In this document: piece by piece, positions 1,994-58,340 of the stretch
How the letters are laid out: every line of letters starts with the position of its first letter
Numbering within the stretch: the stretch's first letter is position 1
Source of the DNA: Lichina pygmaea
Lineage: Eukaryota > Ascomycota > Lichinomycetes > Lichinales > Lichinaceae
Direction: 5' to 3'
DNA: 64,000 nucleotides
NCBI GenBank assembly: GCA_963422465.1
Contig: OY730173.1
Location: 310,001-374,000 of the forward strand
Notes under the pieces: model-generated
What the model was told of the DNA's origin: nothing
Seen by the model: only the letters and a program-made list of their open reading frames with translations
The model's database searches: none
Program-made: the position numbers and the translations under genes

Positions 1994-2592
1994 TGTTACA
2001 ACCCATGGGATGGGAGCCACTCATTTATAGGCAATCAGACTGCGGGCCAGGCAAGAGGACACCATGGAAGTCAAGTGACCAACCAACAAGGGGTCACGTG
2101 ACTGTCGAGACACACGGGAGTCTTGACGCAGCATGCATGAAGTATCAAGACAATCTCACCAGTCTTGACGCAGAATGCATGAAGCATCAAGACAATCTCA
2201 CCAGTCTTGACGCAGGATGCATGAAGCATCAAGACAATCTCACCAGTCTCAACGCAGGGTGCATAACATGGTGGGACTGTTGAGACAATCTTACCTGTCT
2301 TGACGTCAAGACTGTCAAGACAATCTTGATTGTCTTGACAGGCCAGCACTATATAGTCAGGTGATAGTTCCCTTATGGAACAATCGTTTTCAACTCATGT
2401 TGTGATCCAGACAACTAGATCTACTTCAATACAATCCTTTTGTATGAAGCCATTGATCAGGTGTCACCACCACCACGTTCCACCAAACCCCTTCGCACTC
2501 CTTGATACTCCTCTCCTGCGAGAACCAACCCACCTTCCACCTCTCACCCTAATCCTATACTCGGATAGGACAGCACAGTACAGACTGCAACA
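1994..2592 (+). repeat. 5' LTR of G1 (type A)
   Basis: It starts TGTTACAACCC and ends GCAACA. U3 holds about four tandem units of roughly 50 bp (2126-2275) with the inverted pair TCAAGAC/GTCTTGA; the sense TATA (CTATATAG) lies near 2350. The end matches the 3' LTR at 7935-8535. Confidence 0.9.
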
Positions 2593-2610
2593 CTTTGAAG
2601 ACCCTCAAGG
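2593..2610 (+). promoter_or_regulatory. Very short leader between LTR and gag
   Basis: Only 18 bases (CTTTGAAGACCCTCAAGG) separate the LTR end from the gag ATG at 2611, and the same holds in G5 (52,406-52,423). No TGG-type tRNA primer-binding site is visible here. A self-priming mode, known in the Tf1/maggy lineage, is one possibility. Confidence 0.5.
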
Positions 2611-5600
2611 ATGAGTACCTCAGGAGCAACCAACCCCAACTTCCCAGATGGAAAGATTAGTGTTGCTAAGCCAGAACTGTTCTATAGTGAAAGAAACAAG
2701 GTTGACGACTGGCTCATGCAACTCCAAGTCTACTTTCAATTCCAACCAGAGACAAAGCTGCCTAAGGAAAAGTGGCCCCTCTTCGCAACCACTTACATGA
2801 GAGGCAATACTTATTGATAGATCAAGCCCTACGTCAACAAACATCTCTCAGGAAACAGAGACCACAACAGCACAACAGAATAGATGACAAAATGGATGTG
2901 ATTCAAGGACAAGATCAAAAGAATCCTTGGACTATCTAACAAAGACAAAGTGGCTATACGAATGATCCAGCACATCAAACAACAACACTCAGCCACAGAG
3001 TACACCACGCAGTTCAAACAATACTCAGTACTGACTGACTGGGATGACAACACCCTGATAGTCATGTACTGACGTGGACTCAAGGAAAACATGAAGAATG
3101 AAATCACCTTTGACAGACGAGTGGTTGACACACTGGACAAACTCATCACACAAGCAATCAACATCAATGACAAACTATTCAAGCAAGCAATGGAGGAACA
3201 CCACGACAGAGGATACAGCCACCCTGCATAGCATGTGAGCAACCACTACAAGCTGCCTAACAAGGCACTGCCACATGACCCATATAGCTATGCACCCATG
3301 GAAGTGGATGCAGTCCACCACAAGGGAAGGTTCACAAAGGGAAGGAACAACAAAAAAGGGAAAGCACTGAAGTGCTATGCCTGTGGCAAGCTAGGCCACA
3401 TGGTGAAAGACTGTTGTTCAAAGAACAAGGTGCACCAACAGCAACTTAATACACTTGATGGAGACTGGAATGTTATCAAGCCAGAGGACCCACCAGGAGA
3501 GGCTCAGCTATTCCTCAAACAATAGGACAACTACGATCAGACATTGGAAGCAGCCCACCAACTGGCAACATCAGGAGGCAAGGACCTACCAGAACAGACA
3601 GGTCAGGACAAGGGACAGGAGCCCTTAACCACCTCTGATGGGGACTGAGACAAACCCACGTCTATCAAAGAAGAAATACCACAAGGAAGCTATACTTACA
3701 GCATGGACCCATGAAATCTACAGCATGGTGAACTACAGTGGAGGTTTTGCATGAAGCACTACTGCACCTACCACAAACAACTACAAAGGTACAGAGGACA
3801 TTCACCCTACCACACCACCTGCTACAAGCATTGGGTCAATTGCGAGAAGGATGTGTGTGAGATCCATCTTTGGGACAAACACCAACACACCGCATTCTCT
3901 GGGCACACACATGATTGGCACAAACACCTCATGTTTCTACAGCAAGGTAACAACCACAACTGCTACATCAACAATTAGCAGTACTGCCTCAAGCCTGGAT
4001 GTGACAAGCATCAGCAAGACAAATTCATAAACAGATTCCTCAGGACTGATGGGAATAGCTGGACCCATTGCCCAGTCAGTGGAAAGACACTTCAATCAGG
4101 AAAAGACTGAACTCCCTTGTCAAGGGGTGACATCAGGAGCTCAACAACATGACCCCTAGCAACACAAAGCACCTGTGATTGCCTGTGTCACTACATGCCA
4201 ACACGCCAGTACAGACATACGCACTTGTTGACTCTGGAGCCAGTGGAAACTACATCTCAAGACAACTTTACAACACCCTCAGCACTGGAAGGAGATGCAA
4301 GCAGCAGCCCTATCAGCTCACGATGGCAAATAGACAGACAGAGCTAGTCTGCTATGAGACACAGCCAATGGAAATGGTTACCAGACACTATGCTGAAAGG
4401 ATCCACCTTGATATTGTCAAGTTGGCCACTCAGGATATCTATTTGGGGATGCCTTGGCTAAAGAAGTATAACCCAGTTGTTAACTGGAGGACAGGAGTAC
4501 TCACATTTAGGAACTGCACTAACAACACAGCTCAGACCTGTTACCAGCCGTAGAAGGTGTGGACAGATAAGGGAAGGAGTCCTCAGTGGAACCTCACTAA
4601 CAGAAAGGACAACTCTCAAGAGAAGAGGTCCACCTTGACAGGCACACCCCGGAACCAGGTGGCCAAACAGTCAGAGATGAAGAGAGAGGAAGTTGTTAAC
4701 TCTCTGGAGATCTCTGAAGAGTACCAACCTGGGTATGATAACCTCTTTCAGGAAGAGACAACGACAGCAGTGTTGCCTAAGCACTAACCATAGGATCATG
4801 AGATCAAGTTGCAACCAGGGACAGAGCCAGAATTTGGACCAATTTACCAGTTATCAGAGAAAGAGCTCCAAGTACTTTGCGAGTACCTGGAGGAAAACCT
4901 GAAAAAGGGTTTCATTTGAGAATCTCAATCACCAGCAGGATACCCGATACTATTTGCACTAAAGAAAGACAGAAGTCTTCGACTTTGTGTGGATTACAGG
5001 AAACTCAACAACATTACTATCAAGAACTGATATCTGTTGCCAAACACAAACAAATTGCAAGACAGGATCAGCCAAGCTACAATCTTTACCAAGCTGGACT
5101 TGAAAGAAGCATACAACCTGATACGCATGAAAGAAGGAGAAGAATGGAAGACAGCCTTCAGAACCTGATACAGACACTACAAGTATCTGGTTATGCCATT
5201 CGGACTCACAAACACACCAGCAACATGTCAAGCATTGATCAACAACATCATCAGAGCACACCTGGACTAAACAGCTATCACCTACCTGGACAACATTCTT
5301 GTCTACTCAAACATGTAACAGGAACATACCAAACATGTGAAGGATGTTCTACGATGCCTACAAAAAGTAGAGCTCAAGCTCAACCCAAAGAAATACAAGT
5401 TCAACAAACTGGAAGTTGAATTCCTCAGATATGTCATAGGGATTGAAGGGATCAAGATTGACTCTGAGAAAATCAAAGTGATTCAGCAATAGCCAACACC
5501 GACATCAGTTAAGGAAGTACAAGCCTTCCTAGGATTTGCCAACTTTAACTGACAGTTCATAAAGAACTACTCACAGATGGCAACACCACTGACAGAACTC

Positions 5601-7529
5601 ACAAAGAAGGATGTAGAGTACTGGTGGACAGAGAGACAACAAAAAGTATTCTAACAGCTCAAGGATACTTGCGCTAAGGAACCAGTTCTCCTCAACTTCA
5701 AGACAGGCCAACCAACACAAATCAAGACAGACACTTCAGATCAAGCAGTGGGAGCATGTCTATGCCAACAGGCAGATGGCAAGTGGTACCCAGTTGCCTA
5801 CTACTCACAAAAAATGACACAAGCAGAACAAAACTATAATATCCACGACAAAGAGCTACTGGCAGTTGTCAACGTACTTGAACACTGGAGAGTGTACACA
5901 GAAAGCAGTTCTGAACTCACTATTCTCACAGACCACAAGAATCTGACAACATTTATGACAACCAAGAAGCTGAACAGACAGCAAGTCAGATGGGCTGAAC
6001 TCCTAGGGTAACACAAGTTCAAGATCTTGTACACCTCTGGACAAGACAACAGGAGAGCAGACACATTAAGCTGATGAAAAAACCACATGGAAGATGATGA
6101 ACACCAAGGAATAATCTTACAGCAGGACTAGCAAGGAAACCTGGTGCCTCAACCACAGATCAACAAGCTCACAGCAGAAGATACTGAAGAACTAATAAGG
6201 AACTACCACGATAATCCAGCACATAGTCACCCAGGAATCTCCAAGACCACAGACCTTATCCAACAGGCAGGGAACAATGTCATTAACCTCTGACAACATG
6301 TCACAAACTACATCAGCAAGTATCTACTATGCCAGAAAAACAAACATGGAAGACATAAGCTATATACAGGAGGATATCCGAACACAATACTGAGAGGCCT
6401 GTGGGAAGATATGTCAATAGACTTCATCACAAAGCTACCCAAGTCCAAAGACCCAGTCACAGGAATCACCTACAACTTGATTATGGTGATAGTGGACAGA
6501 TTCACAAAATATCTAATAGTGGTACTATTCAAGGAGACCCACACAGCAGAACAGTTGGGACACCTCTTACTGGACAGATTGGTCAGAGACCACAGAGTTC
6601 TGATCATGATCATTACAGACAGAGACAAACTCTTCACATCCAACTACTGGAAGACAATCAGTGCAGCTATGGGAACAAAACCCAAAATATCTACAGTCTA
6701 TCACCCACGAACTGACAGCCAGACAGAGTGAGCAAACCAAGTTCTGGAGACTTACTTACGGCATTACATCAACCAGACCCATAGCAATTGGGTACAGTTA
6801 TTACCAGTGGCACAGCTGGCAATCAACCAGCACAGATCAGACTCAACAAAGGAATCACTATTTTTTGCCAATTTTGGACAACATGCGAACATTGGGATGC
6901 CAAGCAGAGCTTCACCAAACACGGAGAAAGCACTTCAACATGACAAGCTCCTACGACAAACGCACACGATGATGAGGCACTACCTTCAAGAGACCTCAGA
7001 AAGAATACAACATCAAATAGACAAGAAATTGAAAATGGCACCTCAGCTAAAGAAGGGGGATAAAGTCTACCTCCTCACAAGAAATTGGAAAACAAAGAAA
7101 CCAAAGACAAAGAAACTTGACAGCATCAAGGTCAGACTATTTTCAGTCGAAGAAAAAACTGGACCAGTCAACATCAGACTGCGACTACTGAGAGATGCTC
7201 AGCTACACCCAAACTTTCACATCTCAATAATTGAATTAGCTGACCAGAGCACACCCTTGCAGGAAACATTTCATTACCAACCAGAGGAAGAATAGAAATT
7301 CAAGGTTGAACAGATCTTGAAGAGAAAAGGTCAGTGATACCTTGTCAAGTGGAAAAACTACCCAGACTCAGAAAATACCTGGGAACCACTCAGGAACCTC
7401 ATGAACTGCCAGCTCCTCCTGCAACAGTTCTGGCAGAAGCAGGACTGAACAGCTCGGCCTGCAGCGTGGACGTGTCAATAACTGTTGCTGACAAGTCTTC
7501 ACCATCCACCTTTATTTCAGCAACAAGGC

Positions 7530-7890
7530 ACTGGAGCTTCTTCTTCGCTTGACCCTCAGCACCTTCAAGAACCTTTCACTTTCGGGACACACAAGCCTGC
7601 AGCTCAGCAAGCTGCTCAACAAGAGTATCCCGCTTGGCCTCATCAACAGCCAAATCCTCACAAAGGTTATCTTGGGTCATGTTCAGTAACTCCCAAGAAA
7701 GTGACACACAGGACTTCCCACGATAAGTGCATTCAGCGCACTTCAACTTATTGTTGTTGTCAGACATTTGGAAGCAGGGCTTGTGGTTCAAAACACAGAA
7801 GTCACACAGAGCAAGCAACATGAAGTTATGATCACAGATCTGGGCTGCCAGTTGTTTTCAGTAAGCAGAGGCACGTGATTTTGCAGACAT
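7530..7890 (-). other. Antisense Zn2Cys6-like ORF region of G1 (type A variant)
   Basis: On the strand opposite to gag-pol, between the chromodomain and the 3' LTR, there is a coding-like stretch with the spacing C-x2-C-x6-C-x11-C-x2-C-x6-C (near 7680-7810). That is the spacing of fungal Zn2Cys6 binuclear-cluster DNA-binding domains. A leucine-bearing, charged helix-like stretch follows. It is part of a fossil element. Its sequence is only about 70 percent identical to the type B version in G2, E3 and G5 by eye. Confidence 0.55.
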
Positions 7891-7934
7891 ACTCAAGAAT
7901 TCATCAGGACAATGAATGAAGGAGAGGAGGGTAG

Positions 7935-8535
7935 TGTTACGACCCATGGGATGGGAGCCACTTATTTATAGGCAATCAGGCTGCAGGCCAGGCAAAAGGA
8001 CACTATGGAAGTCAAGTGACCAACCAACAAGGGGTCACGTGACTGTCGAGACACACACGGGAGTCTTGACGCAGCATGTATGAAGTATCAAGACAATCTC
8101 ACTGGTCTTGACACAGGATGTATGAAGCATCAAGACAATCTCACCAGTCTTGACGCAGGATGCATGAAGTATCAAGACAATCTCACCAGTCTCAATGCAG
8201 GGTGCATAACATGGTGGGACTGTCAAGACAATCTCACCTGTCTTGACATCAAGACTGTCAAGACAATCTTGATTGTCTTGATAGGCTAGCACTATATAGT
8301 CAGGTGATAGTTCTCTTATGGAACAATCATCTTCAACTTATGTTGTGATCCAGACAACTAGATCTACTTCAATACAATCCTTTTGTACAAAGCCATTGAT
8401 CAGGTGTCACCACCACCATGTTCCACCAAACCCCTTCGCACTCCTTGACACTCCTCTCCTGTGAGAACCAACCTGCCTTCCACCTCTCACCCTAATCCTA
8501 TACTCAGATAGGACAGCACAGTACAGACCGCAACA
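7935..8535 (+). repeat. 3' LTR of G1 (type A)
   Basis: It starts TGTTACGACCC and ends CCGCAACA and is followed by the target duplication CAACT. The U3 repeats are the same as in the 5' LTR. Read on the minus strand it offers a second TATA (CCTATAAAT, near 7968-7976) facing the antisense ORF. Confidence 0.9.
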
Positions 8536-14393: not shown

Positions 14394-14798
14394 TCAAGTC
14401 AAATCCTCGCCATCCGACTCCATCTCTTTCACCAAGCACTGAAGCTTCTGCCTTGCACAGACCTCAGCACCCTCCAACACCTTTCACTTCTGAGACAGAC
14501 AAGCCTGCACTGTGGCAAGTTGTTCAAAGAGTGTGTCGCATGTTGCCTTGTCAGTGGCCACATCCTCACGGAGGTTGTCCTGGGACATGTTCAGAGATTC
14601 CCAGGACACAGAGACACAAGACCTTCCCCACCAAGTGCACACAGCACATTTCAACTTATCATCTTCTCCCAACATCTGGAAGCATGGATGACCATGAAGA
14701 ACACAAAAGTTGCAGGGCGTACGTGAAACAAAACCCTGATCACAGATTTGAGCAGCAAGCTGAGTTCGGCTAACAGTCGCACATGACTTTGGAGGTAT
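14394..14798 (-). other. Antisense Zn2Cys6-like ORF region of G2
   Basis: This region is collinear with the whole antisense ORF of E3 (16,029-16,433). Its second cysteine triad (KCAVCT..GKSC) is visible near 14,605-14,670. It is part of a fossil. It lies 43 bp from the 3' LTR start at 14,842. Confidence 0.55.
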
Positions 14799-15473: not shown

Positions 15474-15985
15474 TGGTGGTGACACCTGATCAACAGCTTC
15501 GTACAAAAAGATTGTATTGAAGTAGATCTAGTTGTCTGGATCACAACATGAGTTGAAGATGATTGTTCCATAAGGGAACTATCACCAGACTATATAGTGC
15601 TCAGTTCATGAGCACAGTGAGCTCTGCTCACTTTGCTCACTTGGTGAGATCAGTGAGCTCTGCTCACTTTGCTCACAGTTCATGCACACTGCGGCAAGCT
15701 GGGTGAGCTCTGCTCACTTTGCTCACTTGTTCATGCACGCTGCGGCAAGCTGGGTGAGCTCTGCTCACTTTGCTCACTTGTTCATGCACGCTGCGGTGAG
15801 CTGGGTGAGCTCTGCTCACTTTGCTCACTTGTTCGTGTATATGCATGCTGCGGTGAGCACCCCCTGGTTTGTCTCACCGGTCACGTAACTGGTTCCCATG
15901 TCACGCTGCCTGGTACTCCTGTCCAGTATCCTGTCTGCTGCTTCCTGTGAGTATATAAAGACTGTATTCCTCCTGGGTCGTAACA
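15474..15985 (-). repeat. 3' LTR of E3 (type B), shortened
   Basis: It matches the other type B LTRs in reverse and ends on the plus strand with GGGTCGTAACA. Three to four U3 units of about 51 bp lie at 15,640-15,850. With the neighbouring G2 LTR (14,842-15,352) it forms a pair of long inverted arms around a 120-bp spacer. Confidence 0.85.
15952..15959 (+). promoter_or_regulatory. Antisense-facing TATA box in LTR
   Basis: TATATAAA-type sequence (GTATATAAAG at 15,951-15,960) at the outer edge of the E3 3' LTR, 71-77 bp before the ATG of the antisense ORF at 16,029. The same element is present at the matching place in every LTR of the family seen here, and type A LTRs have CTATAAAT instead. 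The sense promoter of the LTR uses a separate CTATATAG, so the LTR looks bidirectional. Confidence 0.5.
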
Positions 15986-16028
15986 CTATCCTCCTCTCCA
16001 TCTTTCATCATCTTGATGAAATCCAGTC

Positions 16029-16433
16029 ATGCCTCCAAAGTCACGTGCGACTGTTAGCCGAACTCAGCTTGCTGCTCAAATCCACAATCAGAGTTTTGTT
16101 TCACGTACACCCTGCAACTTTTGTGTTCTTTGTGGTCATCCGTGCTTCCAGATGTCAGGAGAAGACAATAAGTTGAAATGTGCTGTGTGCACTCAGCGTG
16201 GAAAGTCTTGTGTCTCTGTGTCCTGGGAATCTCTGAACATGTCCCAGGACAACCTCCGTGAGGATGTGGCCACTGACAAGGCAACACACAACACACTCTT
16301 TGAACAACTTGCCACAGTGCAGTCTTGTCTGTCTCAGAAGCGAAAAGTGTTGGAGAGTGCCAAGGTCTGTGCAAGGCAGAAGCTTCAGTGCTTGGTGAAA
16401 GAGATGGAGTCAGATGGCGAGGATTTGACTTGA
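16029..16433 (+). CDS. Antisense-encoded Zn2Cys6-type protein of chromovirus E3, 134 aa
   Basis: This is a whole ORF on the strand opposite to gag-pol, starting 43 bp inside the 3' LTR. Residues 29-61 have the cysteine spacing C-x2-C-x6-C-x11-C-x2-C-x6-C (C29, C32, C39, C51, C54, C61), exactly that of GAL4-type binuclear zinc clusters, with one extra cysteine at 35. The usual basic residues between C2 and C3 are weak (VLCGHP), so DNA binding is inferred, not shown. Residues 70-125 are rich in Leu/Glu/Lys and could form a dimerising coiled coil. The N-terminus (MPPKSRATVSRTQLAAQI) is basic. It is the best-preserved frame in E3. A structural or regulatory role in the element is possible; no function is known to me. 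Confidence 0.6.
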   Translation: MPPKSRATVSRTQLAAQIHNQSFVSRTPCNFCVLCGHPCFQMSGEDNKLKCAVCTQRGKSCVSVSWESLNMSQDNLREDVATDKATHNTLFEQLATVQSCLSQKRKVLESAKVCARQKLQCLVKEMESDGEDLT

Positions 16434-19400
16434 TCAGTCATTGACACATCCCTCCTGCAGACTGAGCTGTTTAGTCCTGCTCCTGCCGAAACTATCGCAG
16501 AAGAAGCTGGCAGTTCACAAGGTTCTTGAGTGGTTCCCAGGTATTTTCCAAGTCTGGGTATCCTTTCCACTTGACAAAGTATTGCTGACCTTTCCTAGCC
16601 AGGATCTGTTCAACTTCAAACTCTTGTTCTTCTTCAGGTTGATAATGGAATGTTTCCTGCAAGAGTGTGCTCTGGTCGGCTGGTTCAATCATCAATATAT
16701 GAAAGTTTGGATGGACTCTGGCATCCCTTGGTAGTCATATCTTGACATTGACTGGTCCTGTTTTTTCTTTGACTGAAAATAGTCTGACCTTGATGTTGTC
16801 AAGTTTCTTTGTCTTTGGTTTCTTTGTTTTCTAATTTCTTGTGAGAAGGTAGACTTTATCCCCCTTCTTTAGCTGAAGTGCCATTTTCAATTTCTTGTCT
16901 ATTTGATGTTGTATTCTTTCTGAGGTCTCTTGAAGGTAGTGCCTCATCATCATGTGTGTTTGTTGTAGGAGCTTGTTATGTTGGAGTGCTTTCTCCACAT
17001 TTAGTGAAGCTCTGCTTGGCATCCTGATGTTCGCATGTTGTCCAAAATTGGCAAAAAATAGTGATTCCTTTGTTGAGTCTGATCTGTGCTGGTTGATTGC
17101 CAGCTGTGCCACCAGTAATAACTGTACCCAATTGCTGTAGGTCTGGTTGATGTAATGCTGTAAGTAAGTCTCCAGAACTTGGTTTGCTTGCTCTGTCTAG
17201 CTGTCAGTTCATGGGTGATAGGCCGTAGACATTTTGGGTTTTGTTCTCATGGCTGCACTGATTGTCTTCCAGTAGTTGGATGTGAAGAGTTTGTCTCTGT
17301 CTGTAATGATCATGATTGGAACTCCATGGTCTCTGACCAATCTGTCCAGTAAGAGGTGTCCTAACTGTTCTACTGTGTGGGTCTCCTTGAATAGTACCAC
17401 TATTAGATATTTTATGAATCTGTCCACTATCACCATAATCAAGTTGTAGATGATTCCTGTGACTGGGTCTTTGGACTTGGGTAGCTTCATGATGAAGTCC
17501 ATTGACATGTCTTCCCACAGGCCTCTCAGTATCATGTTTGGATGTTCTTCTCTGTATGGCTTATGTCTTCCATGTTTGTTTTTCTGGCATAGTAGACACT
17601 TGCTGATGTAGTTTGTGACATGTTGTCAGAGGTTAATGATATTATTCCCTGCCTGTTGGATAAGGTCTGTAGTCTTGGAGATTCCTGGGTGACCATGTGC
17701 TGGATTATCGTGGTAGTTCCTTATTAGTTCTTCAGTGTCTTCTGCTGTGAGCTTGTTGATCTGTGGTTGAGGCACCAGGTTTCCTTGCTGGTCCTACTGT
17801 AAGATTGTTCCTTGGTGTTCGTCATCTTCCATGTGGTCTTTTCGTCAGCTTAGTGTGTCTACTCTCCTATTGTCTTGTCCAGGGGTGTACAAGATCTTGA
17901 ACTTGTGTTACCCTAGGAGTTCAGCCCATCTGACTTGCTGTCTGTTCAGCTTCTTGGTTGTCGTGAACATTGTCAGATTCTTGTGGTCTGTGAGAACAGT
18001 GAGTTCAGAACTGCTTTCCGCGTACACTCTCCAGTGTTCAAGTGTGTTGACGACTGCCAGTAGCTCTTTGTTGTGGATATCATAGTTCTGTTCTGCTTGT
18101 ATCATTTTTTGTGAGTAGTAGGCAACTGGGTGCCACTTGCTATCTGCCTGTTGGCATAGACATACTCCCACTGCCTGATCTGAAGTGTCTGTCTTGATTT
18201 ATGTTGGTTGGCCTGTCTTGAAGTTGAGGAGAACTGGTTCCTTGGCGCAAGTATCCTTGAGCTGTTGGAATACTTTTTGTTGTCTCTCTGTCCACTGGTA
18301 CTCCATGTCCTTCTTTGTGAGTTCTGTCAGTGGTGTTGCCATCTGTGAGTAGTTCTTAATAAACTGTCAGTTGAAGTTGGCAAATCCTAGGAAAGCTTGT
18401 ACTTCCTTAACTGATGTCGGTGTTGGCTATTGCTGAATCACTTTGATTTTCTCAGGGTCAATCTTGATCTCTTCGATCCCTATGACATATCTGAGGAATT
18501 CAACTTCTGGTTTGTTGAACTTGTATTTCTTTGGGTTGAGCTTGAGCCCTGCCTGTTGTAGGTATCGTAGAACATCCTTCACATGTTTGGTATGTTCCTG
18601 TTGCGTGTTTGAGTAGACAAGAATGTTGTCCAGGTAGATGATAGCTGTTTGGTCCAGGTGTGCTCTGATGATGTTGTTGATCAGTGCTTAACATGTTGCT
18701 GGTGTGTTCGTGAGTCCGAATAGCATAACCAGATACTTGTAGTGTCTGTATCAGGTTCTGAAGACTGTCTTCCATTCTTCTCCTTCTTTCATGTGTATCA
18801 GGTTGTATACTCCTTTCAAGTCCAGCTTGGTAAAGATTGTAGCTTGGCTGATCCTGTCTCGCAATTTGTTTGTATTTGGCAACAGATATCAGTTCTTGAT
18901 GGTAATGTTGTTGAGTTTCTTGTAATCCACACAAAGTCAAAGACTTCTGTCTTTCTTTAGTGCAAATAGTATCAGGTATCCTGCTGGCGATTGAGATTCT
19001 TGAATGAAACTCTTTTTCAGGTTTCCCTCCAGGTAATCACGAAGTACTTGGAGCTCTTTCTCTGATAACTGGTAAATTAGTCCAAATTCTGGCTCTATCC
19101 CTGGTTACAACTTGATCTCATAATCCCAAGGTTAGTGCTTAGACAATACTGCTGTTGTTGTCTCTTCCTGAAAGAGGTTATCATACCCAGGTCAGTACTC
19201 TTCAGAGATCTCCAGAGGGTTAACAACTTCCTCTCTCTTCATCTCTGACTGTTTGGCCACCTGGTTCTGGGGTGTGCCTGTCAAGGCAGACCTCTTCTCT
19301 TAAGAGTCATCCTTTCTGTTGGTGAGGTTCCACTGAGGACTCCTTCCCTTATCTGTCCACACCTTCTGCGGCTGGTAACAGGTCCAAGCTGTGTTGTTAG

Positions 19401-23136: not shown

Positions 23137-24906
23137 TTTTATTTATTTTATTTATTTGATTCTTACACTGGTAGTAGCTTTACAGCCATGCAGATCTTCT
23201 AGCTAATAGTGAACTCCTTCAGAAAACCTTTGAAGGGATAAAAACTGAAGGCAGGGTGTGACTAGGGAATGTAACAAAAGGAATCTTGAAGTTTCTGGTA
23301 AGAGAAGAGAATCTAGGTATTGGATTGGGAATAGTGGAGTTTGAAAGCTAGATTAAACTGGTTTAGTCTTTTCAAAGACATAAACCAGTACAAGAACTTC
23401 TGTAGTAGCTCTGGGTTTGAAATAATAGTGGTGAAGTCTTGGGGATTAAAAGAGACTTGTTGTCTTTGTCTTGAATAAAGAGAGCATGAAGAGGTGATAT
23501 GTTTTGCAGTTTCTTCTGCTTGGCCACACACACATAGTGGGGTAGGGAAGTCAGGAACTCCAGCTCTGAAAAGAAAACTTGCCAGACCAATTCTTCCAGT
23601 CCTGATTTGCAGTAGCAGACTTGCCTCAGCTTTCTGTAACTCTTTGTAGAGCTTCAGATTGTTTTTGTGTGGCTTTTGACAGAAAGTCTGCCAGCCTGGA
23701 TAGCTTCTTCTTTTCTTCTCTTCCCATTGGTCTTCCCACTCTTTAGTAAAGAGCTTTTGTAGTTCTTTCTTTGAACTAGCCTGGTTAGTAGTTATTTGAC
23801 TTAACCAAGTGAATTTCCACTTAGGAGAGATAGTTGAGGATTCCTTTAAAGGTTTCTTCAAGAGAGAGGCATAGCTGGAAATAGTGGAAAAGATACTGTC
23901 AAGAAAGTATTTGAGAGGGGAGTTTTGAATAGAAGAAAGAAAACAGGCAGTGCGAAATTTAAAGTATAGGTCTAGAGGTAGAAGAAAAAGCTCACTCTCT
24001 AATAGAAAAGAAGGAGTGGCTTTCAAGGCACCCCCAATAAGTCTCAGGCATCTGTTTTGAAATGAAACAAGAGAAGAGATATTGGAGGATTTTCTTAGAG
24101 GGTTAAACCAGATCCCCACTGCATAGCTCAGTAGAGATCTCAGTATAGCAGTGTACACCAGACGTGATGTGTGAACTGGAAAGCCCCAAGTAGAATAGGA
24201 AGTTCTAGAAAGAGAAGAGAGTGCTTTCTGTGCTTTTTGAAGAATAATCCTCTGGTGTTTGTGCCAGTGGAGCTTTGCATCTAGGTACACTCCAAGTACT
24301 CGCACTTCTTCTTTTGGTTTGAGAATCACATTCCCCAGTCTGAGCTTGAGCTGAAGATTGTCTGATCTTCTTCTGGAAAAATGAAGTATTTCATATTTCT
24401 CAGGAGAGAAGACTATTCCATGTCTTGCAGCCCATGATAGACATTTGAGGTGTGTGTTCTTTAACTTCAGAAGGTTACTTTTCAAGGAGTGACCAAAAGC
24501 AAGCAGATTTGTATCATCTGCAAACCCCAGGGCAGATACACCAGAAGAGGGAGTATGCACAGTCTCATGCAATTCAGAAATGTAGAATAGAAAAAGAATA
24601 GAGGATAATGGAGAACCTTGAGGAACTCCACAATGAATAGGAATTGAACAAGACTCAGAATCATCAAAGACAAGAGTGGTAGAGCGCTTATCACAGAAGG
24701 AGTAGATCCAGGAAGCTAGCCAGGCAGGTATTCCTTTTCTTTTCAGAATTTGCTGTAGTATCTTGGGGAGAACTCTGTCATAGGCTTCTGAGATATCCAG
24801 TGAGAGTAGGGATGCAACTATGCCTTCCTTCCAGACTTTTTCCACTTGGGAGGTTAGAAGGAAAAGTGCTGCTTCTGTGGATCTTCCTTTCCTAAAGCCC
24901 ATCTGG
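23137..24906 (-). mobile_element. 5'-truncated Tad1-like LINE (L4)
   Basis: This LINE lies on the minus strand with its 3' tail (TTTATTTTA repeats) at 23,137-23,165, its 3' untranslated region to 23,312 and the ORF2 end upstream. It is cut at 24,906, where homology to the LINE at 59,550-64,000 stops. The next 1,124 bp are not LINE sequence but lie between the LINE and the target duplication ATCAAAGAAGAA (26,031-26,042), so they were inserted together with it. Confidence 0.9.
23313..24906 (-). CDS. LINE ORF2 fragment: reverse transcriptase and C-terminal zinc motif
   Basis: An open frame of about 530 residues covers most of the reverse transcriptase. Visible motifs in order: MGFRKGRSTE, LSLDISEAYDRV (first catalytic Asp), HCGVPQGSPLSS, ALGFADDTNLLA (catalytic FADD), YEILHFSRRR, and the C-terminal CVCGQAEETAKHITSSC cluster. 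No RNase H signature (such as a DGS motif) is seen between the reverse transcriptase and the zinc motif. The endonuclease domain is lacking through 5' truncation. It differs from the copy at 61,423-64,000 at about five residues over the first 300, so both derive from a recently active source. Confidence 0.88.
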
Positions 24907-26030: not shown

Positions 26031-27709
26031 TTCTTCTTTGATAGACGCGGGTTTATCTCAGTCCCCATCAGAGGTGGTTAAGGGCTCCTGTCCCTTGTCC
26101 TGACCTGTCTGTTCTGGTAGGTCCTTGCCTCCTGATGTTGCCAGTTGGTGGGCTGCTTCCAATGTCTAATCGTAGTTGTCCTATTGTTCGAGGGATAGCT
26201 GAGCCTCTCCTGGTGGGTCCTCTGGCTTGATGACATTCCAGTCTCTGTCAAGCGTATTAAGTTGCTGTCAGTGCACCTTGTTCTTTGAACGATAGTCTTT
26301 CACCATGTGGCCTAGCTTACCACAGGCATAGCACTTCAGTACTTTCCTCTTTTTGTTGTTCCTTCCCTTCATGAACCTTCCCTTGTGGTGGACTGCATCC
26401 AGTTCCATAGGTGCATAGCCATATGGGTCATGTGGCGGTGCCTTGTTAGGCAGCTTGTAGTGGTTGCTCACATGCCATACAGGGTGGCTGTATCCTCTGT
26501 CGTGGTGTTTCTCCATCGCTCACTCGAATAGTTTGTCATTGATGTCGATTGCTTGTGTGATGAGTTCATCCAGTGTGTCGACCGCTTGTCTGTCGAAGGT
26601 GATTTCATCCTTCATGTTTTCCTTGAGTCCACGTCAGTACATGACCATCAGGGCATTGTTGTCCCAGTCAGTCAGTACTGAGTATTGTTTGAACTGCGTG
26701 GTGTACTCTGCGGCTGAGCGTTGTTATTTGATGTGCTGGATCATTGGTATAGCCACTTTGTCTTTGTTAGATGGTCCAAGGATCCTTTTGATCTTATCCT
26801 TGAATCATGTCCATTTTGTCATCCATTCTGTTGTGCTGTCGTGGTCTCTGTTTCCTGAGAGATGTTTGTTGACGTAGGGCTTGATCCATTGATAAGTATT
26901 GCCTCTCATGTAAGTGGTTGCAAAGAAGGGCTACTTTTCCTTAGGCAGCTTTGTCTCTGGTTGGAATTGAAAGTAGACTTGGAGTTGCATGAGCCAGTCG
27001 TCGACCTTGTTTCTTTCGCTGTAGAACAGGTCTGGCTTGGCGACGCTAATCTTTCCATCTGGGAAGTTGAGGTTGGTTACTCCTGAGGTACTTATCCTTG
27101 AGGGTCTTCAAAGTGTTGCGGTCTGTACTGTACCGTCCTATCCGAGTATAGGATTAGGGCGAGAGGTGGAAGGTGGGTTGGTTCTCGCAGGAGAGGAGTG
27201 TCAAGGAGCGCGAAGGGGTTTGGTGGAACGTGGTGGTGGTGACACCTGATCAACGGCTTTGTACAAAAGGATTGTATTAAAGTAGATCTAGTTGTCTGGA
27301 TCACAACATGAGTTGAAGATGATCATTCCATAAGGGAACTATCGCCAGACTATATAGTGCTCAGTTCGTGAGCACAGTGAGCTCTGCTCACTTTGCTCAC
27401 GGTTCATGCACGCTGCGGCGAGCTGGGTGAGCTCTGCTCACTTTACTCACTTGTTTATGCACGCTGCGGCGAGCTGGGTGAGCTCTGCTCACTTTGCTCA
27501 CTTGTTCATGCACGCTGCGGCGAGCTGGGTGAGCTCTGCTCACTTTGCTCACTTGTTCGTGCATATGCATGCTGCGGCGAGCACCCCCTGGTTTGTCTCG
27601 CCGGTCACGTGACTGGTTCCCGTGTCACGCTGCCTGGTACTTCCGTCCAGTATCCTGTCTGCTGCTTCCTGTGAGTATATAAAGACTGTGTTCCTCCTGG
27701 GTCGTAACA
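26031..27709 (-). mobile_element. Chromovirus G2, 5' portion (5' LTR and gag)
   Basis: This is the complement of the fossil at 10,572-15,473. The 5' LTR is 27,114-27,709 and gag runs from about 27,093 down to 26,270 with the CCHC knuckle (CYACGKLGHMVKDY-like). The sequence stops at ATCAAAGAAGAA (26,031-26,042 in reverse), the same site at which the 3' portion begins. It is broken in several places. The 5-bp flank AAGCT (27,710-27,714) matches the other end of G2 in reverse. Confidence 0.85.
27114..27709 (-). repeat. 5' LTR of G2 (type B)
   Basis: 596 bp, TGTTGCGG to GGGTCGTAACA, with about three to four U3 units at 27,400-27,560. The high GC of its units (GCGGCGAGCTGGGTGAGC) suggests less transition decay than in the G2 3' LTR. 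Confidence 0.9.
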
Positions 27710-49878: not shown

Positions 49879-51811
49879 TTTTTTTTTATTTTATTCTTAC
49901 TCTGATTTGGCTGGTGAGCCATGCAGAACTTCTAGATACATGCTTTTTTTCCCAGAAAACCTTTGAAGGAATAAAAACTGAGACTTGGGTAAGACTAGGG
50001 AATTATCTGGAAGAATATGCAGTGTCTGGAGAAAATAAAATCACAGAGATGATAGGTTTTCTGGTAAGAGTTGGTGTGCTAAGTTAAACTGGTCTAGTCT
50101 TTTCAAAGACATAAACCAGAGAAGAAATTCTTTAAGCACTTTAGGCTTTTGAAGTAAAGTAGAGAAATTGTAGGAAAGAAAAGTGGCTTGCTGTCTTTGA
50201 GTAAGAAACTTGTTATAAGAGAAAGTAATATATTGAGCAGTCTCTTCTCCAAAACCACAGGAACATAGAGGGGATTGGAAGTCAGGAATATTTGCTCTGA
50301 AAAGAAAGCTGGCTAGTCCTATCCTTGCTGATAGAATCTACAAGTAAAGACTAGCTTCAGCTTTTCTCAAGTCTTTGAAAACTTTGAGATTTTTCTTTTG
50401 GGGTAGTCTGCAAAATAGCTCCCAGACTGAAGAACATTTCTGTCTGTTTGCCTGCCATCTGGCTTCCCACTCTTTCTGAAACACTTCTTGAAATTGTTTC
50501 TTAGAGTAATCTTGGTTAGTGGTTAGTTCTTCTAGCCATCTTGCTTTCCAGTTAGGTGTGATAGTAGACAGAGACTTTGGAGGTGTTCTCAGAGTAGAAA
50601 CAAAAACAGTGATCTGGGAAAAGAGCTTATAGAGAAGTGAGGAGAGAGGATTAGAAGAAGTATTGGAAAAATAGAAAGATTGTAGGAAAGTTGCTGTTCT
50701 AAATTTGAAATAAAGATCAAGAGGTGGTAGGAATAGTTCTCCTTCAATAAGAAATGTAGGAGTAGCTTTGAAGACACCTCCTATAGTTTTTAGACACTTA
50801 GTCTGGAAAAGATTTAGAGAAGAAATATTAGAAGGTTTTTTGTGGGGATAGAACCAGACTCCTACTGCATAGCTGAGAAGTGATCTCAGTATTGCAGTGT
50901 AGACAAGTCTAGCAGAGAGAACAGGTAGACCCCATGTAGAAAAAGTAGTTCTGGAAAGTGCTGAGAAAAACTTGGAAGCTTTCTGTAACATGATTTTCTG
51001 GTGTTTTTTCCAGAGAAGCTTGGAATCATAGTGTAGTCCCAGAATACGCACTTCTTCCTTAGGCTGTAGTACCACTTCTCCAAGTCTTAGACTGAGCTGA
51101 AGATTATCTGTTCTTCTTCTAGAAAAATGGAGAAGTTTATACTTTTCAGGTGCAAACTTCATTCCATGTTTTCTTGCCCAGTCTAAACACTTGGAGTGAG
51201 TAGACTTTAGCTTCAGGAGATTGCTTTTAAGAGAAGGGGAAAATGCCAGAAGGTTTGTGTCATCTGCAAAGCCCAGAGCTGATACACCTTTCTCTGGTGT
51301 ATGAACAGTATCATGAAGATCTGAAATATAGAAAAGAAATAAAATAGGAGAGAGAGGTGAACCTTGAGGGACTCCACAGTGTACTGGAAAAAAAGAAGAC
51401 TCTGAATCATCAAAGACAAGAGAGGTTTTTCTTTGGGTAGTGAAAGAAAAGATCCAGTTAACAAACCAGCTGGGGATTCCTTTTCTCTCCAGGATTTTCT
51501 TGAGAATTTCTGGCAGAACTCTATCATAAGCTTCTGAGATATCCAGAGAAAGAAGACTCGCTACCATTCCTTTCTTCCAGACTTTTTCAACTTGGGAAGT
51601 GAGTAGAAATAGTGCAGACTCAGTTGATCTTCCTTTTCTAAAGCCCATCTGGATTTCTGGTAGTAGGTTTTCTTTCTCAGCCAGTTCACTTAGCTTTGTG
51701 GCTGCCAGAGCTTCCATCAGCTTCCCAGTTGTGTTGAGAAGTGCTATTGGCCTCCAAGCTTTGGCATAGCAATAGGATCCTTTGCTAGACTTTCTCAAGC
51801 ATATTGTTCTG
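49879..51811 (-). mobile_element. LINE L6, 3' part (reverse transcriptase to tail)
   Basis: This LINE lies on the minus strand with its tail at about 49,879-49,895. ORF2 runs on the reverse strand from 51,811 with KAWRPIALLNTTGKLME, IQMGFRKGRSTE, LSLDISEAYDRV, HCGVPQGSPLSP and ALGFADDTNLLA. An in-frame TAG lies at 50,338-50,340, and the C-terminal zinc motif has lost its last His and Cys (CSCGFGEETAQYITFSY). It is a sister subfamily, clearly divergent from L3/L4/L7, with a more AT-rich sequence. It continues at 58,346 after the insertion of G5. Confidence 0.88.
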
Positions 51812-55400: not shown

Positions 55401-57298
55401 ACTAACAGAACTCACAAACAAGGATGTGGAGTACCGGTGGACGGAGAGATAACAAAAAGTATTCCAACAGCTCAAGGACACTTGCGCCAAGGAACCAGTT
55501 CTCCTTAACTTCAAGACAGGCCAACCAACATGAATCAAGACAGACGCTTCAGATCAGGCAGTGGGAGCATGTCTATGCCAACAGGCAGACGGCAAGTGGC
55601 ACCCAGTTGCCTACTACTCACGAAAAATAACATAAGCAGAACGAAACTATGATATCCATGATAAAGAGCTACTGGCAGTTGTCAACACACTCGAACACTG
55701 GAGAGTGTACGCAGAAAGCAGTTCTGAACTCACTGTTCTCACAGACCACAAGAATCTGACAACGTTCACGACAACCAAGAAGCTGAACAGACAGCAAGTC
55801 AGATGGGCTGAACTCCTAGGGCAACACAAGTTCAAGATCTTGTACACCCCTGGACAAGACAACAGGAGAGCAGACACACTAAGCTGACAAAAAGACCACA
55901 TGGAAGATGATGAACACCAAGGAACGATCTTACAGCAGGACCAGCAAGGAAACCTGGTGCCTCAACCACAGATCAACAAGCTCACGGCAGAAGACACTGA
56001 AGAACTAATAAGGAACTACCACGATAATCCAGCACATGGTCACCCAGGAATCTCCAAGACCACAGACCTTATCCAACAGGCAGGGAATAATGTTATTAAC
56101 CTCTGACAACATGTCACAAACTACATCAGCAAGTGTCTACTATGCCAGAAAAACAAACATGGAAGACACAAGCCATACAGAGAAGGACACCCGAACACAA
56201 TACCGAGAGGCCTGTGGGAAGACGTGTCAATGGACTTCATCACAAAGCTACCCAAGTCCAAAGACCCAGTCACAGGAATCACCTACGACTCGATTATGGT
56301 GATAGTGGACAGATTCACAAAATATCTAATAGTGGTACCATTCAAGAAGACCCACACAGCAGAACAGTTGGGACACCTTTTACTGGACAGATTGGTCAGA
56401 GACCACAGAGTTCCAATCACGATCATTACAGACAGAGACAAACTCTTCACATCCAACTACTGGAAGACAATCAGTGCAGCCATGGGAACAAAACCCAAAA
56501 TGTCTACAGCCTATCACCCACAAACTGACAGCCAGACAGAGTGAGCAAACCAAGTCCTGGAGACTTACTTACAGCATTACATCAACCAGACCCACAGCAA
56601 TTGGGTACAGTTATTACCGGTGGCACAGCTGGCAATCAACCAGCACAGATCAGACTCAACAAAGGAATCACTATTTTTTGCCAATTTTGGACAACATGTG
56701 AACATCAGGATGCCAAGCAGAGCTTCACCAAACACAGAGAAAGCACTCCAACATGACAAGCTCCTACGACAAACGCACACAATGATGAGGCACTACCTTC
56801 AAGAGACCTCAGAAAGAATGCAACATCAAATAGACAAGAAATCGAAAATAGCACCTCAGCTAAAGAAGGGGGATAAAGTCTACCTCCTTACAAGAAATTG
56901 GAAAACAAAGAAACCAAAGACAAAGAAACTTGACAACATCAAGGTCAGACTATTTTTAGTCGAAGAAAAAACAGGACCAGTCAACATCAAGATACGACTA
57001 CCAAGGGATGCCAGAGTCCATCCAAACTTTCATATATCAATGATTGAACCAGCCGACCAGAGCACACCCTTGCAGGAAACATTCCATTACCAACCCGAAG
57101 AAGAACAAGAGTTTGAGGTTGAACAGATCCTGGCTAGAAAAAGTCAGCAATACCTTGTCAAGTGGAAAGGATACCCAGACTCAGAAAATACCTGGAAACC
57201 ACTCAAGAACCTCGCGAACTGCTGGCTTCTTCTGCGACAGTTTCAGCAGGAGCAGGACTGAACAGCTCAGCCTGCAGGAGGGATGTGTCAATGACTGA

Positions 57299-57703
57299 TC
57301 AAGTCAAATCCTCACCATCCGACTCCATCTCTTTCACCAAGCACTGAAGCTTCTGCCTCGCACAGACCTCGGCGCCCTCCAACACCTTTCACTTCCGAGA
57401 CAGATGAGCCTGCACTGTGGCAAGTTGTTCAAAGAGTGCATCGTGTGTTGCCTTGTCAGTGGCAACATCCTCACGGAGGTTGTCCCAGGACATGTTCAAA
57501 GATTCCCAGGACACAGAGACACAAGACCTTCTGCGCCGAGTGCACGCAGCACATTTCAACTTATTGTCTTCTCCCAGCATCTGGAAGCACAGACAACCAC
57601 GGAGAACACAAAAGTCGTAGGGTGTACGTGAAACAAAACCCCGATCGCAGATTTGAGCAGCCAGCTGAGTTTGGCTAACAGTCGCACATGACTTTGGAGG
57701 CAT
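57299..57703 (-). other. Antisense Zn2Cys6-like ORF region of G5
   Basis: It starts with MPPKSCATVSQTQLAAQI 43 bp from the 3' LTR and is collinear with the E3 version. The antisense-facing TATATA of the LTR lies about 70 bp upstream (near 57,774-57,781). It is part of a fossil and is not whole. Confidence 0.55.
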
Positions 57704-57746
57704 GACCAGATTTCATCAAGATGATGAAAGATGGAGAGGAGGATAG

Positions 57747-58340
57747 TGTTACAACCCAGGAGGAACACAGTCTTTATATACTCACAGAAAGCAGCAGACA
57801 GGATACTGGACAGAAGTACCAGACAGCATGACACGGGAACCGGTCACGTGACCGGCGAGACAAACCAGGGGGTGCTTGCCGCAGCATGCATATGCACGAA
57901 CAAGTGAGCAAAGTGAGCAGAGCTCACCCAGCTCGCCGCAGTGTGCATGAAAAGTGAGCAAAGTGAGCAGAGCTCACCCAGCTCACCGCAGCGTGCATGA
58001 AAAGTGAGCAAAGTGAGCAGAGCTCACCCAGCTCACCGCAGCGTGCATGAAAAGTGAGCAAAGTGAGCAGAGCTCACTCTGCTCACGAACTGGGCACTAT
58101 ATAGCCAGGTGATAGTTCCCCTATGGAACGATCGTCTTCAACTCATGTTGTGATCCAGACAACTAGATCTACTTCAATACAATCCTTTTGTACGAAGCTG
58201 TTGATCAGGTGTCACCACCACCACGTTCCACCAAACCCCTTCGCACTCCTTGACACTCCTCTCCTGCGAGAACCAACCCGCCTTCCGCCTCTCGCCCTAA
58301 TCCTATACTCAGATAGGACGGTACGGTACGGACCGCAACA
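57747..58340 (+). repeat. 3' LTR of G5 (type B)
   Basis: 594 bp, the same length as the 5' LTR, ending ACCGCAACA and followed by TTCTG. Sense TATA CTATATAG at 58,097-58,104. It keeps more G and C than the 5' LTR at nearly all differing sites near its end. Confidence 0.95.

Follow-up and report, generated by a model that had tools for sequence, protein, structure and literature searches.

An antisense open reading frame with a Zn2Cys6-type cysteine pattern, linked to U3 repeat arrays, in chromoviruses of the ascomycete Lichina pygmaea

Antisense open reading frames (ORFs) located between pol and the 3' long terminal repeat (LTR) have been described in plant retroelements, where the aORF-3R genes of maize Grande (gene23), rice RIRE2 and Silene Retand occupy this place in all or most copies; in Grande an antisense promoter lies immediately upstream and the product localises to the nucleus (PMC7264820). 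This review describes no clear protein similarity and no recognised relatives for the plant products, assigns these genes no determined role, and also mentions an antisense promoter in the 3' LTR of human T-cell leukaemia virus (HTLV; PMC7264820). Here we describe an antisense ORF at the equivalent position of E3, a retroelement found in a 64,000-nucleotide stretch of the Lichina pygmaea genome (assembly GCA_963422465.1, contig OY730173.1, forward-strand positions 310,001 to 374,000; hereafter the window), which differs from the plant genes by its Zn2Cys6-type pattern and by its residence in a chromodomain element. A further parallel, by analogy, is HBZ, the bZIP protein of the animal retrovirus HTLV-1, an antisense regulator from the 3' LTR acting on host transcription; expression of the fungal ORF would be the counterpart. 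No bZIP family was among the matches listed in our Pfam scans, and no direct comparison with HBZ was made.

Among fungal elements, crapaud of Podospora anserina is likewise a chromodomain LTR element; its LTR diversity lies mostly in the U3 (unique 3') region, before the TATA box, whereas R-U5 and the greater part of the internal sequence are common to its copies, and template switching has been considered as a possible origin of its LTRs. It differs in that the figure legend names gag and pol ORFs only, the words 'antisense' and 'zinc' occurring 0 times in the text (PMC10787394). A survey of Tcn1-like elements of fungi and plants mentions an extra ORF of unknown function, the word 'antisense' being absent from its text (PMC2864245), and in a paper on lichen transposable elements the word stands in the reference list only (PMC8773270). 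The initial annotation knew of no description of an antisense zinc-cluster protein from a fungal LTR element, and we likewise found none in the open-access literature, nor any account of the cassette arrangement presented below.

E3 is inserted on the minus strand, so that its antisense ORF runs on the plus strand, opposite to gag-pol and just inside the 3' LTR, which precedes the antisense ATG (Table 1). As first noted by the initial annotation, the frame is stop-free from ATG to TGA over 134 codons although gag-pol is badly broken: the only ATG-started sense ORFs of at least 120 amino acids between the LTRs are pieces of 156 and 135 amino acids. The six cysteines, at residues 29, 32, 39, 51, 54 and 61, are spaced C-x2-C-x6-C-x11-C-x2-C-x6-C. 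This motif had been attributed to four copies in the window, and G2 and G1 do share it with E3, whereas G5 has a tyrosine in place of the first cysteine. The start codon of G2 is mutated from ATG to ATA and its frame holds one stop, while the G1 frame is interrupted at codons 11 and 105. In intact copies of the G1 subfamily the antisense gene exceeds 134 codons, reaching 166 and ending in ...GSSRGS. E3-type copies mostly terminate at codon 135 (TGA); the relative P0003 reads through to the GSSRGS end, and the open-frame figure is 166 or 169 instead of 137 in 13 of the 150 scored E3-type places. We assign the family of E3, G1, G2 and G5 to the chromoviruses because G5 has recognisable gag and protease domains and a pol that ends in a chromodomain (Chromo, 50.5 bits against a cut-off of 25.1).

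The ORF is a regular component of these elements. A search of the genome of the window (32.5 Mb, 8 contigs) returned 502 candidates, the best 150 of which were scored; all 150 match residues 1-134 or 2-134 with 78-100% identity, and the antisense frame is stop-free in 41. Three lists of ORF places were compiled, each the best-scoring 150 of 495-506 candidates; the G1-type query spanned codons 12-104 only, and 20 G1-type copies were picked because their frames are open across the part that was scored. As these lists were selected by ORF score, a second sample was picked by pol end (the best 150 of 1023 matches) and the flanks were inspected. With stops allowed, the ORF is collinear over 134 codons beside 142 of these 150 places. 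An E3-type ORF place was present at 122 and a G1-type one at 8, which on re-examination (6 by sequence, 2 by list) cover the full 134 codons or start from codon 2; 2 further places have an ORF match in the third list. The other 18 comprise 10 collinear ORFs, 5 with an altered start (alignment from codon 14-28), 1 frameshifted and 2 cut short. For the window elements the position between pol end and LTR was confirmed.

The excess of synonymous over nonsynonymous change by which the initial annotation proposed to judge the antisense frame is present. Between 32 E3-type sequences (G2 twice; 31 separate copies) and 21 G1-type sequences, fixed transversions number 15, 7 and 27 at codon positions 1, 2 and 3 (p 0.0014), and the Nei-Gojobori ratio of nonsynonymous to synonymous substitution (dN/dS) is 0.10, with dS saturated, against 0.92-1.67 in four other frames. 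The uncorrected pN/pS, counted over 31 E3-type and 7 G1-type copies, is 0.28 (0.21-0.38) and takes in post-insertion decay, which pushes the ratio up. Within types the signal is weaker (0.50 and 0.38), as expected because copies decay after insertion. These substitution patterns demonstrate, at the level of sequence comparison, selection on the antisense gene. It is hardly conceivable that the ORF is a shadow of sense-strand coding or a product of chance: the sense frame sharing its wobble positions also has a low dN/dS (0.22) and 11 of the 21 G1-type sequences lack stops in a different sense frame, but the former is open in 0/53 sequences, with averages of 5.4 and 4.0 stops for the two types, and the latter has a dN/dS of 1.67 and is open in 0/32 E3-type sequences. 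Moreover, pol of G5 terminates at 57261, ahead of antisense codons 1-134 (57302-57703), the end of the 166-codon form overlapping the pol end tail to tail in G5 coordinates. Very improbable too is the view that the antisense RNA is what matters, for instance by pairing with gag-pol RNA, and that the ORF is incidental; non-coding antisense transcripts are reported for other elements (PMC7264820), but the codon-position pattern, the pN/pS and the retention of six cysteines across distant relatives speak for a protein.

By the evidence of their sequences, copies of the antisense ORF are decaying. Pure transitions account for 108 of the 114 variable sites within the E3 type and 92 of 95 within the G1 type, with 62 and 46 transitions in CpG context. 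TGA at codons 11 and 105, mostly CGA in other copies, makes up 25 of the 26 stops in the 32 E3-type sequences, and TGA at the same two codons 12 of the 18 stops in the 21 G1-type sequences. Cys35 and His37 of E3 occupy positions that are arginine in P0003; the extra Cys35, arginine in other copies, fits CpG decay. E3 is intact in part by luck.

Zn2Cys6 proteins follow the rule C-x2-C-x6-C-x(5-12)-C-x2-C-x(6-8)-C (PF00172), with which the spacing in E3 agrees exactly. When wider homologues were compared as protein sequences, six cysteines and this rule were found in 53 of the 56 aligned rows covering the six columns, E3 included, the central loop alone varying (8-12 residues). Loss of the spacing in related elements, which the initial annotation had named as a ground for refutation, is thus not observed. 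The GAL4-type reading, drawn at first from spacing, now has modest support from each of three approaches. The profile-profile probability for Zn_clus is 67.5 with a deeper profile, up from 51. At E<=0.1, 11 of the 74 aligned sequences match Pfam Zn_clus (best 3.6e-4); P0089, P0036, P0076 and P0138 score 11.7-14.5 bits, below the Pfam gathering score of 21; the E3 protein alone matches no Pfam family at E<=10. The predicted structure, finally, aligns at low Z with GAL4/HAP1/PUT3-type proteins: as in these factors, the six cysteines are modelled with a short helix at each CxxC and a long helix after them, the latter predicted in P0003 with a block-mean pLDDT (predicted local distance difference test) of 92-99 over residues 71-130. 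A resemblance of the antisense product to GAL4-type DNA-binding proteins is therefore supported. Unlike those factors, the product has only ~134-166 residues and a weak basic loop, and is encoded antisense in a retroelement. DUF3716 (PF12511), a fungal cysteine-rich domain of comparable layout, fits less well: the best match observed reaches 13.8 bits (P0003, E 0.055), below the gathering score of 22, its profile probability drops from 25 to 8 with the deeper profile while that of Zn_clus climbs, and it is absent among the 25 families listed for the 74 aligned sequences. The homologue P0087 has the precomputed label PF27583.1, a family absent from the Pfam copy that was searched.

Going upstream from the antisense ATG, the U3 adjoining the gene presents a TATA-like box, CACGTG, an array of half-sites and CTATATAG. 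The box stands at -77 in 32/32 E3-type sequences (31 separate copies), as TATATAAAG in 30 and TATATAAGA in 2, and TATAAATRA is found at -79/-80 in 18 of the 19 scored G1-type copies. CACGTG lies at -147 in 23 of 29 E3-type copies (not in E3) and at -150/-151 in 6/6 G1-type copies; it is shared by both LTR types although U3 differs, and is possibly a host bHLH site. CTATATAG, present in 27/29 E3-type and 6/6 G1-type copies, usually 18 bp past the far end of the array, is taken to be the likely sense-directed TATA, lying where U3 meets R. In E3-type copies it stands anywhere between -251 and -540, and the offset between copies is often close to 50 bp, the size of one array unit; array length itself differs among E3-type LTRs, commonly in ~50 bp steps. 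The arrays are specific to type, with 50-51 bp units and GTGAGC/GCTCAC half-sites in E3-type copies; in G1 the unit measures 42 bp and contains inverted repeats of TCAAGAC/GTCTTGA. Each of 32 E3-type records (30 separate copies) has 4-23 instances of TGAGC per 480 bp and none of TCAAGAC; 7 of 8 G1-type copies have 2-11 instances of TCAAGAC and none of TGAGC, while the eighth has other sequence there.

ORF and U3 differ between the types as parts of a single 3' cassette. In 200-base bins, G1 is 88-98% identical to E3 or G5, without gaps, over positions 2501-7100; beyond 7100 the identity is 80-85% in the pol end, 61-67% in the ORF and 55-68% in U3, and over the final portion of the LTR it is again 87-94%. 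Over 31 E3-type and 7 G1-type copies, fixed differences between types per 50 bp stay at 0-4 up to G5 position 56999, reach 3-8 in the pol end and 9-15 within the ORF, and drop to 0-1 from 58100 onward. In pol (55870-56500) the two types are separated by a transversion distance of 0.011, against 0.012 within the E3 type and 0.003 within the G1 type; for the ORF the figure is 0.127, against 0.002 and 0.001. The ORF tree separates the types with support 1.0, and the pol tree is without such a split; in the latter, 6 of the 7 G1-type copies cluster, and the all-site distance is 0.08 between types versus 0.05-0.07 within. Distances and trees thus indicate that ORF and U3 diverge as one block on a nearly common backbone. 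Template switching during reverse transcription could have produced the cassette, since the 3' end is copied into both LTRs. The inclusion of the chromodomain pol end, which also differs between types (transversion distance 0.027 versus 0.0025 and 0.0009 within), would suit a DNA-binding integration accessory that picks targets together with the chromodomain or acts on complementary DNA, the U3 array being a host-driven enhancer. We hold this to be unlikely: the pol-end differences are mostly synonymous (pN/pS 0.15, 0.08-0.26), so that the chromodomain protein is little changed, and the antisense gene, if expressed, is expressed separately from gag-pol.

The reading we favour, with slightly better than even confidence, is that of an accessory antisense gene whose Zn2Cys6-type protein binds the U3 array of its own element and controls its own transcription and that of gag-pol in elements of its type. 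Transcription of the gene would probably start at a promoter that lies in U3 of the 3' LTR and faces inward, and its small, presumably zinc-binding product would probably dimerise by the long helix. The dimer would bind the tandem half-sites between the antisense TATA and the likely sense TATA, thereby regulating both the antisense gene itself and the gag-pol promoter of same-type copies. Autoregulation is the most economical interpretation, and the element may regulate itself; repression seems more likely than activation, since both the placing of the array, with a promoter on either side, and the high copy number suit copy-number control. Type-specific recognition would fit the sequences: the Cys2-Cys3 loop, which makes base contacts in the Zn2Cys6 fold, reads VLRGRP in P0003, VLNHKP in the G1 type and VLCGHP in E3, and the half-sites also differ between types. 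Linkage alone can account for the co-variation of ORF and U3, which is therefore no proof of binding. There is also a modest chance that the protein, like HBZ, targets host genes or host silencing and not chiefly the LTR. GAL4-type proteins are host-style regulators, the antisense ORF family is widespread, and its many copies bear mostly transitions, often at CpG, so that counter-defence would pay; a closer target is nevertheless offered by the type-specific arrays, which lie densely packed next to the gene. As a tentative extension of the autoregulatory reading, an antisense Zn2Cys6 repressor and its cognate LTR operator array might be exchanged as one unit, in the manner of an immunity region, among elements that are almost identical elsewhere, which would define separately controlled subfamilies in one nucleus and drive U3 diversification in fungal chromoviruses such as crapaud.

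Table 1. Positions of the antisense ORFs, LTR features and cassettes in the window
Feature	Position	Strand	Remarks
E3 antisense ORF	16029..16433	+	134 codons + TGA; Zn2Cys6-type Cys pattern at residues 29-61, then predicted long helix
E3 stretch past TGA	16434..16529	+	homologous to the C-terminal 31 residues of the 166-codon form, which ends in ...GSSRGS
3' LTR of E3	15474..15986	-	adjoins the antisense ORF directly on its upstream side
TATATAAAG, antisense-directed TATA-like box in U3	15952..15960	+	77 nt ahead of antisense ATG
Tandem array with GTGAGC/GCTCAC half-sites, U3	15653..15834		51-bp unit, 3.6 copies
CTATATAG, putative sense-directed TATA at U3/R border	15590..15597	-	E3
G2 antisense ORF copy	14394..14798	-	ATG lost, one stop, six Cys retained
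G5 antisense ORF copy	57299..57703	-	one stop; Tyr replaces first Cys
G1 antisense ORF copy, second cassette type	7393..7890	-	166-codon form, internal TGA stops, six Cys retained
Chromodomain at G5 pol end	57112..57249	+	residues 135-180 of the translated stretch 56710-57258
Exchangeable 3' cassette, G5 coordinates	57000..58100		pol end (chromodomain), antisense ORF, U3; borders approximate
Other cassette version in G1	7101..8287		borders approximate

Further variants of the ORF were observed in the genome. Loci L095, L096, L103, L104 and L106 have an N-terminus altered before the first cysteine (VTCEP, VTCKP or VMCKP) and perhaps form a further sublineage. A third variant of the ORF is found in the old relics L111 and L112; in L112 it is open over 165 codons, and the LTR features adjoining both stand in reversed order and carry TCGAGC repeats. 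The same genome contains a repeated family of DUF3716-type ORFs (L033, L035, L036, L037 and L039), which in L035 is convergent with an ORF on the opposite strand, integrase-like by eye; a second cysteine-rich fungal domain may thus ride on a mobile element. The window also holds an E3/G5-type LTR with 88% identity, probably solo, at 27234-27709, and two long minus-strand ORFs (23313-24902 and 50338-51717) resembling by eye the reverse transcriptases of long interspersed nuclear elements.

With its resemblance to a known transcription-factor domain, a likely target array alongside, and natural copies that number well over a hundred and come in two cassette versions, the fungal antisense gene lends itself to direct tests of function and specificity. 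If the proposed role is true, retrotransposons would carry their own regulators together with matching operators, like temperate phages, and the fast turnover of U3 in fungal elements would gain a possible cause.
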